Positions 56,645 through 61,324 of a DNA stretch of 64,000 bases are shown one piece after another. Below the pieces are notes generated by a model. The model was not told the origin of the DNA. It ran no database searches and was given only the letters and a program-made list of their open reading frames with translations. The position numbers were made by a program, and so were the translations under genes. The stretch is from assembly GCA_937929805.1 (NCBI GenBank), contig CALFUT010000005.1, positions 1 through 64,000 of the forward strand, written 5' to 3'. Every line of letters begins with the position of its first letter. Positions within the stretch are counted from its first letter, which is position 1. The stretch comes from an uncultured Pirellulaceae bacterium (GTDB lineage: Bacteria > Planctomycetota > Planctomycetia > Pirellulales > Pirellulaceae).

Positions 56645-56754
56645 GCGACTGGGGCGATCGCCGCGAACACGTCGACCCTTTGTGTTTGATGTGACTCAGC
56701 GGCAACACAATCATTCGAAATCAATTCAACTGTTTGAAGTTTGATATTTCAATC

Positions 56755-59067
56755 ATGCAAGAATCTACCAAGACTAAAGCTTTTGTTGGCGGCGCGGCCC
56801 TGATGGTGGTTGCCGCGCTCGTCAGTCACTTTGCCAATCAGCCGCGATCGGCCGATGACTTCGCGAACGTTGGCGAGCCATTCTTTGAGAACTTTAATTC
56901 CAGTTCGCAGGCCAGCTCGCTGGAAGTCGTCGCGGTTGATCCGGAAACGGTCCAGCGAAATCGTTTCAAAGTTGCCAAAGTGGACGGCCTGTGGCGAATT
57001 CCCTCGCACGAAGACTATCCGGCTGAAGCTTCGGCCCGTTTGGCGACTACGGCTTCATCCATCATTGGAATCGAACGCGAATCTTTGGCCGGTCGAGGCA
57101 CAAAAGACTTTAAGCGATTGGGCGTGGTGGATCCGCTAAGCGAAGAAATTGACGATCCGGAAGAGGTCGGGCAACGAATTACGCTCAAGGACGATAACGA
57201 TGAAACGTTGGCGGATTACATCGTTGGCAAGCAGGTTGAAGATGTAGCGCTTTCGGCCACCGATCGCCCGTTTGAAAGTGGTCAGAACCGGCAGACGTAT
57301 TTCTACGTTCGCCATGCCGAAGAACAGCAGACATACATCGTGCCGCTAAAGCTGGACCTATCTACAAAGTTCTCGGACTGGATTGACCCGGATCTGCTAC
57401 GGTTTGAGACGTCAGATCTCAGTCAGATCACCATCCGCAATTACTCGTTGACGGAGGAGATCGCCGGCAATCCTCTGATTCCTCAACGCGCGCTTAAGAA
57501 AAAGGACGGCGACATTCTGGCGCTGACGAAGTCTGATTCGAATGCTTGGGAGCTTGCCGGTGTGGAAGAAGCGATCGAAGAGTTCGACGCTGCGGCGGTG
57601 ACGGAGATGATCGGTGTGCTGGACGAACTTCAAATCGAAGATGTTCGTCAGAAGCTAACCTTGCAAGGAAAGCAGCTGCTTACACCCGACTTGAAAGTCA
57701 ACGAAGACCCTGAGCTAATGAAAAATCGCGGGGAGTTTGGCCGAGCGATCTCGCAGTTGGTGGCGGAACTGGAGGAAAAGGGGTTTAACCTCGCAGGGAC
57801 GCAGCAGCAATTGGAACTGGTTTCCAACCAAGGTGAAATTGAGTTTGGAACCAACGAAGGCATGCGTTACACGCTGTACGTCGGTGCTCCGTTTGAAGAG
57901 GGGGACGCCGAGATCAAGGTTGCCGGTGCGGTTGATTCGGCGGAAGGCGACGAATCGGATGAGTCAAAAGAATCATCAGAGGAGAGTGATGGAGGTGCAG
58001 ACGACGCGGCAGCTGAGTCCGACGGTGGGACTGAGGACGAAGAAGCGGACGACGAAGATGACACAAAGAGTCGCTACATGCTGGTTCGGGTCGCCTTCGA
58101 TCAGTCGCTTTTGACCGATCAGCCAGAGAAGCCGACAAAGCCGGAAGAGCCACAGAAGCCTGAAGGGTACACGCCACCGCCAGCTGCTGAGGATGATGCA
58201 GATGCGGCAGATGTCGACGCAGACGGCAAAAACAAGAGCAGTGCCGATGCGGTTGAGGAAAGCTCAGGCGAGTCGTCCGATGAAGACAAGGAAGCGGAAG
58301 AAGACGGCGAAGCCGCTGAGGGCAAAGATTCTGACAAGGCGGACTCGAAAGGTGAGTCTGACGGTTCAAAAGAAGAGCCAACTCGATCGCCCGAGTTCGC
58401 TGCCTACGATGCCGCGATGGAAGATTATGAACAGGCAATGGTTGACTACGAACTTGCGCTGACGCGGTACAAAGATGACCAAGAAGATTTTGGAGAACGC
58501 GTTGAAACGGCCAAGAAACTGGAAGCTGAATTGAACGAGCGATTTGGCGATTGGTACTACGTGATCTCAGGCGAAAACCTGAAGGCATTGCAAGTAAGTC
58601 GCAGCGATCTTGTCACCAAGAAAAAGCCACCGGTGGCACCCGGCGGCAAAGTGCCCAGTGCCCTGCCCGATCGCCCCGATATCTCGTTCGATGGTGTGCC
58701 GGATGAGGTTCAAGTTGATCCGGCTGATGATGCTGATGCAGCGGCGGCATCATCCGATGCGAATGCCGAAACGGAGATGAAGCCAGACTCCCCTGAGCCA
58801 AGTGCCGATGTCGAGCAGCCAGAAACAACGCCTGCCGCAGAGCCTGCGCCTGAACCTTCGGGAAGTCCGTCGACGGAGCCGCCAGTTGAAACTCCAGCCG
58901 AACCAGTCGCGGAGCCAGCAGTTCCGGTAGAGAACGCGGGTGGTGAAGTGGTCGAACCAGCGACCGATGTCCCGCCCGCAGATCCGATTCCCTCGACACC
59001 AACCGCCCCGCCAACGCCAGCGGACGGAGTGCCCTCGGTCGAACCGGTTGGTGAACCCTCTCCATAG
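56755..59067 (+). CDS. DUF4340 protein with acidic and proline-rich inserts
   Basis: The 770-residue protein has an N-terminal membrane helix (AFVGGAALMVVAALVSHFA) and DUF4340 beta-rich repeats (VVAVDPETVQRNRFKVAKVDGLWRIPSHEDY, ADYIVGKQVEDV). A strongly acidic region follows (about 395-445 and 480-560, Glu/Ser/Asp/Ala). The last 130 residues are Pro/Ala/Glu-rich (EPAPEPSGSPSTEPPVETPAEP). ATG at 56755 was taken; an upstream TTG is less likely. It is the third gene of the Gld-type ABC operon, probably the substrate-contact partner. Confidence 0.85.
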   Translation: MQESTKTKAFVGGAALMVVAALVSHFANQPRSADDFANVGEPFFENFNSSSQASSLEVVAVDPETVQRNRFKVAKVDGLWRIPSHEDYPAEASARLATTASSIIGIERESLAGRGTKDFKRLGVVDPLSEEIDDPEEVGQRITLKDDNDETLADYIVGKQVEDVALSATDRPFESGQNRQTYFYVRHAEEQQTYIVPLKLDLSTKFSDWIDPDLLRFETSDLSQITIRNYSLTEEIAGNPLIPQRALKKKDGDILALTKSDSNAWELAGVEEAIEEFDAAAVTEMIGVLDELQIEDVRQKLTLQGKQLLTPDLKVNEDPELMKNRGEFGRAISQLVAELEEKGFNLAGTQQQLELVSNQGEIEFGTNEGMRYTLYVGAPFEEGDAEIKVAGAVDSAEGDESDESKESSEESDGGADDAAAESDGGTEDEEADDEDDTKSRYMLVRVAFDQSLLTDQPEKPTKPEEPQKPEGYTPPPAAEDDADAADVDADGKNKSSADAVEESSGESSDEDKEAEEDGEAAEGKDSDKADSKGESDGSKEEPTRSPEFAAYDAAMEDYEQAMVDYELALTRYKDDQEDFGERVETAKKLEAELNERFGDWYYVISGENLKALQVSRSDLVTKKKPPVAPGGKVPSALPDRPDISFDGVPDEVQVDPADDADAAAASSDANAETEMKPDSPEPSADVEQPETTPAAEPAPEPSGSPSTEPPVETPAEPVAEPAVPVENAGGEVVEPATDVPPADPIPSTPTAPPTPADGVPSVEPVGEPSP

Positions 59068-59168
59068 AATATGGTGTTCTCCGAACGGTCATCAAAGTTC
59101 ACTCGCCCGTCCAAAGCAAGTGAAGTGAAAGGCGTTCGATAGTCTTTCGCAAAGTCGAAAACGAAATC

Positions 59169-59723
59169 CTAATCGCATTTTTTGTTTTGCGAGGAAGGTG
59201 GCATCGTTGTCACCAATTCAACAATCTCGTTGGCGCTGGGGCGGTCGTGAGGGTGTTGGCTTGGATGAAACAGCCGGATGATGCCCTTCGGATCGATCAC
59301 GATGTCACCGCCAAGCTGCCGGATATCCTTGCCCTTTTTCCCGGGAAAGCCGCCGCTGAAAATGTCGCCCAGATACCGCATGATCCGCAACGGGCTCGCC
59401 AAACTCCATAAATTGCCTTTCTCCATGGTGTAGGCGTGATACAGTTTGAATTGAGGATCTAGCAACAAGGGCCAATCCAAGTCAAACGTCTTCCGGTAAT
59501 CGCCAGCCAATTCCGGGCTGTCGAACGTTACGACTTTCACGTCTGCAAATGCTGCGAGTTTCGATTCGAATTCACGCAACTGCGTGAGGTGCCGACGGCA
59601 CGGCGGTCAGCCAAGGTGGCGGTGAAATAACAACACCAACCAGCGGCCGCGGCTGTCTTCAAGGCGATGTTGGTTGCCTTCGGAGTCTAGAAGATCAAAA
59701 GGGATTGCGGGTTTGCCAAGCAT
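59169..59723 (-). CDS. Candidate selenoprotein: AhpC/TSA (SelU/PRXL2-like) peroxiredoxin-like protein
   Basis: From ATG at 59721-59723 a frame runs MLGKPAIPFDLLDSEGNQHR... to LLFHRHLG, meets one in-frame TGA (59607-59609, codon 39), then continues PPCRRHLTQLREFESKL to a TAG/TAA-type stop at 59169. Read as Sec, it gives U39-P-P-C42 exactly where AhpC-TSA_2/SelU-type proteins have CxxC or UxxC (pattern 'LvlFfRHlGC..CR.hl..L'). The downstream part matches the family (DPQFKLYHAYTM, QLGGDIVIDPKG, HDRPSANEIVELV). The total of 184 residues is normal. A SECIS-like hairpin begins 19 nt after the TGA. The alternative is a nonsense mutation. Confidence 0.82.
59572..59587 (-). promoter_or_regulatory. Candidate bacterial SECIS hairpin
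   Basis: On the minus strand TCACGC (59587-59582) pairs perfectly with GCGTGA (59577-59572) around an AGTT loop (59581-59578). The stem starts 19 nt after the TGA and the loop about 25 nt after it. G is the second loop base. This fits the loose bacterial SECIS rule (hairpin within about 16-37 nt of UGA, G in the first two loop bases). Confidence 0.55.
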
Positions 59724-59801
59724 GATTTTTCGCTTCAAAAGGAGTCGGTGAAATCTGACGACAGCTGGCCGGACACTGCTGCCCAAGCATTGACCTCTAC
59801 C

Positions 59802-61172
59802 CTAAACCGGGTTGAGCAAGCGAATGGCAACGGTGACGTAGATCAGAATTCCCAAAATATCGACGATGCCGGCGACAAAGGGATTGCTCATCATGGCCGG
59901 GTCCCAGCCGAGTTTTTCAAAAACAAGAGGAAGTACCGAACCCGTCAGCGTGCCACACATCACCACCAACAGTAGCGTCAGCGGAACCACCAGCGTCGCG
60001 TAGGGCCCCAGCGCTTGATCGTTGGGCACGAACAGAAAGCACGCTGCAAATCCCATCAAGGCCAACCCGCCACCCAATAGCACTCCCATTTTAAGCTCGC
60101 GAATCATCACCCGCCGGTAATCTTGCAGCGTGATATGGCCTCGCGAAAGCGCGGTGATAATCAACGTGGCGCTTTGGCTGCCCGAGTTTCCGCCACTACT
60201 GATGACTAGCGGGATGAATGGCACTAGCCACGCCCACGTTTCGAATGGTTCTTCAAATCGCTGCAATGCAAACGCCGTCATCAGCGCGAAGAAGAACAGC
60301 ACGGCCAACCAGATGCCTCGTTTCCACGTCAGTGTGAAGACGGAAGTCTGCAAGTAGGTTTCGTCCAACGGGTCGACCGCCGCGCTGCGGTGAGCGTCTT
60401 CGGTGGCTTCTTCTCGCATCACGTCGATCACGTCATCGTGCGTGATGATCCCAAGAATCCTGCGCTCGGGGCCAACAACGGGAATGGCCAGCAGGTCCAT
60501 TCGTGCCACATGATTGGCAACGTCTTCTTGGTCGTCCGAGACGCGCACCGCGATCAGATCTGTCTCCATGATCTCCGACAACAGGCGGTCCGGATTTCTC
60601 ATGCTTGTTAGCAACTGTCTTGCTGACACGAGCCCTCGCAGGTGGTCCTCATCGTCAACGACGTAGACATAGTAGATGGTTTCGTAGTCTTCGGATTGCC
60701 GACTGATCTCCTCCATCGCCTGACTCACGGTCAAGGTTTCAGACACCTTCGCAAAGTCGGTGGTCATCACCGCGCCGGCGGTTCCTTCTGGGTATTGGCT
60801 TAGACGCAGGAAGTCGCGACGTTCCTCGACCGGCATTCGCTGAAGAATGTCATCCAATACCGTGTCATCAACTTCTTGCAGCAGGTCGACGCGGTCGTCG
60901 GGAGAAAGTTGAGCGACCATTTTGGCCAGTTGCTCTCGGTCCTGTGTTTCGATGATGGCGATCTGGCGATGGGTTTCGACGTACGAAAACACATCCACTT
61001 GGGTCGTAATGTCTGCATGAGCCAAAACATGCCAAAGCTCGTCGTTGTTCAATCCCGCCATGAAGTCGGCAGTCCGTGAAGGGTGCAACGCGGTGCAGAA
61101 CTCGGCCATCTCCTGCGCGTTGCCGGTGGCCAGCATCTCGCGAAGTTCAGGAAGAAAAAGTGTATTGACCAT
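59802..61172 (-). CDS. mgtE: Magnesium transporter MgtE
   Basis: The 456-residue protein has the MgtE N-domain (about 1-130; LRQ...DPADxAxxL-type repeats, here LHPSRTADFMAGLN, VDLLQEVDD, LQRMPVEERRDFLRL). A tandem CBS pair follows (about 130-260; GLVSARQLLTS, AIPVVGPERRILGIITHDDVIDV). Five transmembrane helices end it, with the pore motif (PLVISSGGNSGSQSATLIITALSRG) from about 320. ATG at 61170-61172 (MVNTLFLPEL) was chosen. It is a Mg2+ channel gated by cytosolic Mg2+. Confidence 0.94.
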   Translation of the reverse strand: MVNTLFLPELREMLATGNAQEMAEFCTALHPSRTADFMAGLNNDELWHVLAHADITTQVDVFSYVETHRQIAIIETQDREQLAKMVAQLSPDDRVDLLQEVDDTVLDDILQRMPVEERRDFLRLSQYPEGTAGAVMTTDFAKVSETLTVSQAMEEISRQSEDYETIYYVYVVDDEDHLRGLVSARQLLTSMRNPDRLLSEIMETDLIAVRVSDDQEDVANHVARMDLLAIPVVGPERRILGIITHDDVIDVMREEATEDAHRSAAVDPLDETYLQTSVFTLTWKRGIWLAVLFFFALMTAFALQRFEEPFETWAWLVPFIPLVISSGGNSGSQSATLIITALSRGHITLQDYRRVMIRELKMGVLLGGGLALMGFAACFLFVPNDQALGPYATLVVPLTLLLVVMCGTLTGSVLPLVFEKLGWDPAMMSNPFVAGIVDILGILIYVTVAIRLLNPV

Positions 61173-61324
61173 GGCGGTCACCTTGGATGGGAGCGAAGCT
61201 TGGAACTGAGCCAAGCGGACTTGGTCTGAAAAATTATGTTGAACGGTACGTCAGAAAAGATACGTCACAATTTTCCCGATCGTCGACAAAAGTCAGAAGC
61301 CGACTTGGGAGCAGAGAATGTCCT

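Follow-up and report, generated by a model that had tools for sequence, protein, structure and literature searches.

A minus-strand reading frame in a 64,000-nucleotide stretch of DNA from an uncultured Pirellulaceae bacterium (the window, meant here at its full length) is interrupted by a TGA codon at its redox motif. This raises the question whether the TGA marks a broken gene, the end of a short product or a selenocysteine (Sec) codon.

The reading frame and its TGA codon

The sequence-only reading had described two halves of a gene that lie in one frame and join at a redox motif. We found the same arrangement: 38 codons lead from the ATG to the TGA, P-P-C follows directly and the frame continues to the TAG with this TGA as its single interruption (Table 1). 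With Sec at the TGA the 184-aa product has the N-terminus MLGKPAIPFDLLDSEG and contains FHRHLG-U-PPC. Its ATG start is matched by the two nearest homologues (L024 and L025), both of which have MIGQPAVPF. It had also been expected that a gene caller would begin at the TTG at 59579 and lose the active site, and the mechanical ORF list indeed gives solely 59169..59579, with a TTG start and 136 aa. As this TTG straddles the loop end of the candidate SECIS element described below, the gene-caller start is an accident of that element. Ordinary annotation would cut the gene short or call it broken, exactly at the site that makes it an enzyme.

TGA is no general sense codon in the window. Among the 29 long ORFs that were found mechanically within it (at least 250 aa, little overlap), 11 end with TGA, 11 with TAG and 7 with TAA.

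Table 1. Coordinates of the gene, its sequence elements and its upstream neighbour in the window
Feature	Position	Strand	Remarks
Complete CDS	59169..59723	minus	ATG 59723-59721 to TAG 59171-59169; 184 residues with putative Sec39 (U-P-P-C); homologues match over about the full length
In-frame TGA, codon 39, read as Sec	59607..59609	minus	TGA in 83/84 distinct FHRHL sequences (window's included), TGC in 1
Cys42 (TGC), second residue of UxxC	59598..59600	minus	Cys in 82/83 FHRHL Sec sequences, TGA in 1
Leu49 (TTG), end of SECIS loop and stem	59577..59579	minus	False start in the ORF list; TTG in 81/81 Leu
Candidate bSECIS hairpin	59572..59587	minus	6 bp stem, loop AGUU 59581-59578, 25 nt from UGA to loop; folding and covariation
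mgtE magnesium transporter, upstream neighbour	59802..61214	minus	TIGR00400, 346.7 bits; 78 bases before the ATG

Conservation of the TGA codon and of a SECIS-type hairpin

Homologues with C or U at codon 39 had been named as possible support for Sec decoding, and both kinds exist. Among 60 related genomes, its own included, all 21 aligned full or near-full sequences (window's included) have U39 and C42; in a 22nd genome (G006) the gene apparently lies in two contig pieces, with the TGA in the first. A search of genome contigs with the window protein as single sequence gave 49 stretches with the pattern, none of which was confirmed as a relative, and an alignment (A1) was therefore used as query. 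Among the best 80 of the 92 relatives found in this way in the contig collection, 79 have TGA at the site and one (L138) has TGC. Since many of the named and the unnamed loci stem from identical contigs, duplicates were removed. The resulting set of distinct FHRHL sequences, which were taken with 105 bases of context and for which L023-L047 were accepted only with U at the site, has TGA in 83 of 84 (window's included) and TGC in one. Left out were L040 and L109 (contig ends), L044 (a fragment), L133 (a mis-hit) and the non-FHRHL loci L045, L046 (Cys, RHAGCTFC) and L047. In the scan of 109 loci the motif had to have U or C at the site; L081 was overlooked and L133 mis-hit, and both proved on manual reading to have TGA there.

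By record title or rank, the FHRHL TGA forms belong to Planctomycetota, Acidobacteriota, Thermodesulfobacteriota, Myxococcota, Pseudomonadota, Verrucomicrobiota (one locus) and Hydrogenedentota (one locus); nearly all named loci are metagenome-assembled genomes. Apart from L138, Cys was seen in 21 distant members. In a quick LG+G4 tree, drawn with a midpoint root, the FHRHL branch holds 84 Sec rows and 1 Cys row and a distant FLRH-type branch 21 Cys and 4 Sec rows. On this tree the Sec/Cys label has to switch 5 times, with at least 3 of the switches on starred branches. Distant peroxiredoxin-like relatives from planctomycetes (L045, L047, L066, L072, L078, L079 and L081) also have TGA at a comparable site, in motifs such as RHIGUVFC, RQFGUAFC and RHFGUPFC. 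Two rows with two TGA codons each (L024 and L034) were considered as UxxU forms and rejected, the second TGA being the terminator. A marine Planctomycetaceae homologue (L149:3085-3096) reads U-L-P-U, with two TGA codons 9 bases apart and one GCAGUUGC hairpin downstream; it is a lone sequence, in which an error is possible.

The RNA that follows the UGA folds into a hairpin of -8.9 kcal/mol in the window, and the window sequence folded alone is moderately better than its shuffles (z -1.85). An Rfam search of positions 58500-60500 (E≤5) gave no SECIS and one chance match. The 83 FHRHL Sec sequences align without gaps across 42 bases from the UGA, with at most 7 bp of stem enclosing an AGUU loop (nt 26-29); 81 of them, and L133 as well, have the core GCAGUUGC. 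In place, the 7-bp stem pairs in 94.1% of the cells and has a covariation score of 0.520, versus 17-69% and at most 0.142 when it is slid by 1-3 columns, a control that retains the relatedness of the sequences but which a structure drawn from these same sequences tends to outscore.

The first base of codon 47 and the third base of codon 50 pair, G-U allowed, in 78 of the 83 genes (shuffle mean 38.9, maximum 56, n=5000; shuffle contrasts here and below are inflated by relatedness). Where codon 50 is a CGN Arg codon, with a synonymous third base, the pair with codon 47 is kept in 57 of 60 genes (shuffle mean 26.4, maximum 41, n=20000), or in 36 of 60 when only Watson-Crick pairs are counted (mean 13.1, maximum 25, n=20000). 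This pairing of a synonymous site is the strongest point for an RNA element. Pairs changed on both sides numbered 4 and showed no contrast with shuffles (4.0) or slid versions (up to 5), and the 16 further pair types were not clearly distinct either (shuffles 13.7, slid up to 15). Leu49 is encoded by TTG in every gene that has Leu there, with Val (GTG) in the two others, while TTG makes up 3-31% at seven other Leu sites. As a natural experiment the homologues are clean: covariation between a synonymous position in one codon and a second codon holds a SECIS hairpin together.

We then applied the bSECIS rules as they are published in PMC13188914. At the fixed place (18-nt fold) the window gene and 72 of the 83 FHRHL Sec genes conform to the rules and none of 22 Cys genes does; since 21 of these Cys genes come from the distant FLRH-type branch, this contrast between Sec and Cys is partly one between branches. 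Of the 11 FHRHL Sec genes that do not conform, nine have the AGUU loop on a stem that is weaker or shorter and two (L067 and L160) lack the core, which is likewise absent from all 22 Cys genes. Because the fixed-place test favours the FHRHL branch, it was repeated with a hairpin accepted at any place within the range of the rules. Conforming hairpins were then found in 76/83 FHRHL Sec genes, in 7/8 other Sec-like genes (L013, L045, L047, L066, L072, L078, L079 and L081, of which only L079 fails) and in 4/22 Cys genes, the lone FHRHL Cys gene (L138) again failing. Among the eight other Sec-like genes the core occurs in L072 only, so the core marks the FHRHL branch and the in-range hairpin marks Sec genes.

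These patterns allow a tentative suggestion, to which we give somewhat less than even odds: the FHRHL-U-x-x-C form may be close to Sec-obligate, having kept Sec and a near-invariant GCAGUUGC core across about seven phyla, with the RNA constraining codons 47-50, Cys rare and the L149 lineage perhaps shifted to U-x-x-U. Many bacterial Sec families show Cys forms more often than this subfamily does. If the suggestion is true, Sec may do chemistry here that Cys cannot. The strictness with which Sec and the SECIS core are kept is possibly under-appreciated.

Selenocysteine machinery and alternative readings

A search for selA, selB, selC and selD in the same genome had been proposed as a check, and all were found. 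In this draft of 4.22 Mb (74 contigs, 95.6% complete) there are matches for selA (E 1.7e-145), selB (357.3 bits, cut-off 242), selD (267.1 bits) and tRNA-Sec (70.1 bits, cut-off 47; reported by ARAGORN as tRNA-SeC tca), which sit on different contigs. The genome has ten AhpC-TSA matches, eight of them without a stop and two with one TGA, namely the window gene and C38:16304-16687. The latter lies in a second candidate selenoprotein gene (L013, C38:16214-16855, minus strand), the product of which would be an exported-looking peroxiredoxin-like protein with W-U-P-F-C; the hairpin after its TGA satisfies the bSECIS rules, and manual reading showed U at the corresponding WUPFC/WUPIC site in two matches from outside this genome (L173 and L176). 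Selenoproteins in planctomycetes have been reported (PMC4807772).

Across the phylum, the family was found in 80 of 392 sampled genomes (E≤1e-15), 40 with TGA inside the match and 40 without, where any family match with an internal TGA was counted as TGA form and the site itself was checked in part (TGA position in 9 of the 40 TGA-form genomes, Cys in 21 of the 40 others). SelB (E≤1e-70) is present in 36 of the 40 TGA-form genomes versus 10 of the 40 others (Fisher p 3.6e-9, inflated by relatedness), and the four TGA-form genomes without SelB all have full-length SelA matches. Within the genus, SelB (E≤1e-60) was found in 25 of 28 genomes. The exceptions, without SelB at this threshold, are G004, which shows no match to the window gene either, and two genomes with the TGA form, G002 (89% complete, weak SelA-like matches only) and G023 (71% complete, a SelA fragment). 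As both of these genomes are incomplete, we read their gaps as missing contigs. Six SelB-bearing genomes (G005, G009, G011, G013, G021 and G027) gave no close homologue, Sec or Cys; these are drafts that may miss the gene.

A pseudogene or sequencing error, in which an original TGC or TGT became TGA by mutation or miscall, is a natural thought for a draft in 74 contigs and a codon one base away from those for Cys. It is refuted by the many independent assemblies in which the codon is TGA (83 of 84 distinct FHRHL sequences), the covariation in the hairpin also speaks against it, and we give it practically no weight. Equally negligible is the idea of two products, a 38-residue peptide ending at the TGA and a separate protein from TTG 59579. 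Such an ORF does stand in the mechanical list, but its TTG lies inside the hairpin and has been retained as the Leu codon of a conserved Q-L, protein conservation is unbroken across the TGA, and the downstream piece would have neither the redox motif nor the initial strands of the predicted fold.

Very improbable, if slightly less so, is a UGA at which a suppressor or near-cognate tRNA inserts Cys or Trp, or which is read through at a low level without Sec. This would suit G002, which has the TGA form and neither SelB nor a convincing SelA. Against it stand the full Sec machinery in the gene's own genome, SelB or, in the remaining four, SelA in all 40 TGA-form genomes of the phylum, a bSECIS-type hairpin with a G in its loop, and the 11 of 29 long ORFs in the window that terminate at TGA.

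Our preferred reading, with a probability of about 0.96, is that the gene is a genuine selenoprotein gene, in which Sec insertion at UGA 39 would be directed by a SECIS element and would yield a thiol oxidoreductase of peroxiredoxin fold. The U-P-P-C motif with Sec39 that the sequence-only reading proposed is very probably correct, supported as it is by the conserved TGA, the SECIS-type hairpin and the sel genes. The gene adds a well-supported case of Sec use in uncultivated Pirellulaceae.

Predicted fold, proposed catalysis and relation to known selenoproteins

Judged from the sequence features above, the ribosome would insert Sec at UGA 39 with the help of Sec-tRNA-Sec and SelB, directed by the hairpin with its AGUU loop in codons 48-49, 25 nt past the UGA. 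The product would be a SelL-related redox protein, a thiol oxidoreductase with a predicted peroxiredoxin fold. Its best curated match is the NCBIfam model NF040769, 'SelL-related redox protein' (159 bits, cut-off 120, residues 5-169 of 184), which gives 166-192 bits on three other Sec homologues and 157 on the Cys homologue L138. This model takes Cys and Sec forms alike, whereas the clade of the window gene consists of 84 Sec rows and 1 Cys row. In Pfam, AhpC-TSA (PF00578; 61.4 bits, cut-off 26) matches residues 3-150 and spans U39-P-P-C42. The family label AhpC-TSA_2/SelU (PRXL2) that had been given to the protein is partly supported: PF13911 scores above its cut-off (42.3 bits, cut-off 27), but NF040769 and PF00578 fit better, and the best PF13911 stretch (54-151) leaves the redox motif outside.

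The predicted structure has a peroxiredoxin fold (pLDDT 87.9). Among solved chains it most resembles Bcp4 (Z 20.1), 9usa (Z 19.2) and AhpE (Z 19.2), three that lie within 1 Z unit and count as a tie. The 9usa chain is human prostamide synthase, which we take to be PRXL2B; it has a C44/C47 pair and superimposes with an rmsd of 2.4 over 157 residues, and the Bcp and AhpE peroxiredoxins tie with it. By sequence, the PDB gave weak matches to thioredoxin-family proteins and peroxiredoxins only (best E 0.00095). Residue 39 directly precedes helix 40-50 in the model, presumably where the peroxidatic residue of a peroxiredoxin fold lies. The typical peroxidatic motif of peroxiredoxins, PxxxTxxC, is absent from the window protein, in which residues 32-39 are L-F-H-R-H-L-G-U without Pro or Thr. 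Given this absence and the place of residue 39 before the helix, we think that the protein may function as a UxxC thiol oxidoreductase or peroxidase. The nucleophilic attack would probably come from Sec39 and the resolving step from Cys42, in a cycle that may run via a selenenylsulfide. A thioredoxin-type reductant would reset the enzyme, and the substrate could be a peroxide or a disulfide.

The neighbouring mgtE is, as far as tested, not part of the system. Neither mgtE, ispG nor the ORF at 56734 was found beside the 80 named loci (ORFs of at least 120 aa, flanks of up to 3 kb per side). The 12 largest clusters of flanking ORFs include the gene itself (79 loci) and a cluster of 43 loci that resembles an antisense shadow of the gene; the others cover at most 8 loci each, so no operon points to a partner.

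SelL is characterized by a UxxU diselenide motif. The window protein is related to it by the name of its NCBIfam model, and the L149 homologue has U-L-P-U; the window protein itself would have U-P-P-C, not UxxU, and by this motif it is not SelL proper. SelL has been described as a peroxiredoxin-like protein of prokaryotes and aquatic eukaryotes (PMC2398784). Peroxiredoxin-like thiol:disulfide oxidoreductase selenoproteins (pfam00578, with UxxC or UxxU) are listed in PMC9312934, and a protein of this kind is listed for Geobacter sulfurreducens and G. metallireducens in PMC1794560; the sections concerned name no planctomycete members. Three Geobacter-titled loci (L123, L127 and L141) carry the subfamily of the window gene, and L123 is among those scanned with NF040769. 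The window gene shares the Pfam domain and the UxxC motif with this published class, to which it is likened by description, and it is a very well supported new addition to it.
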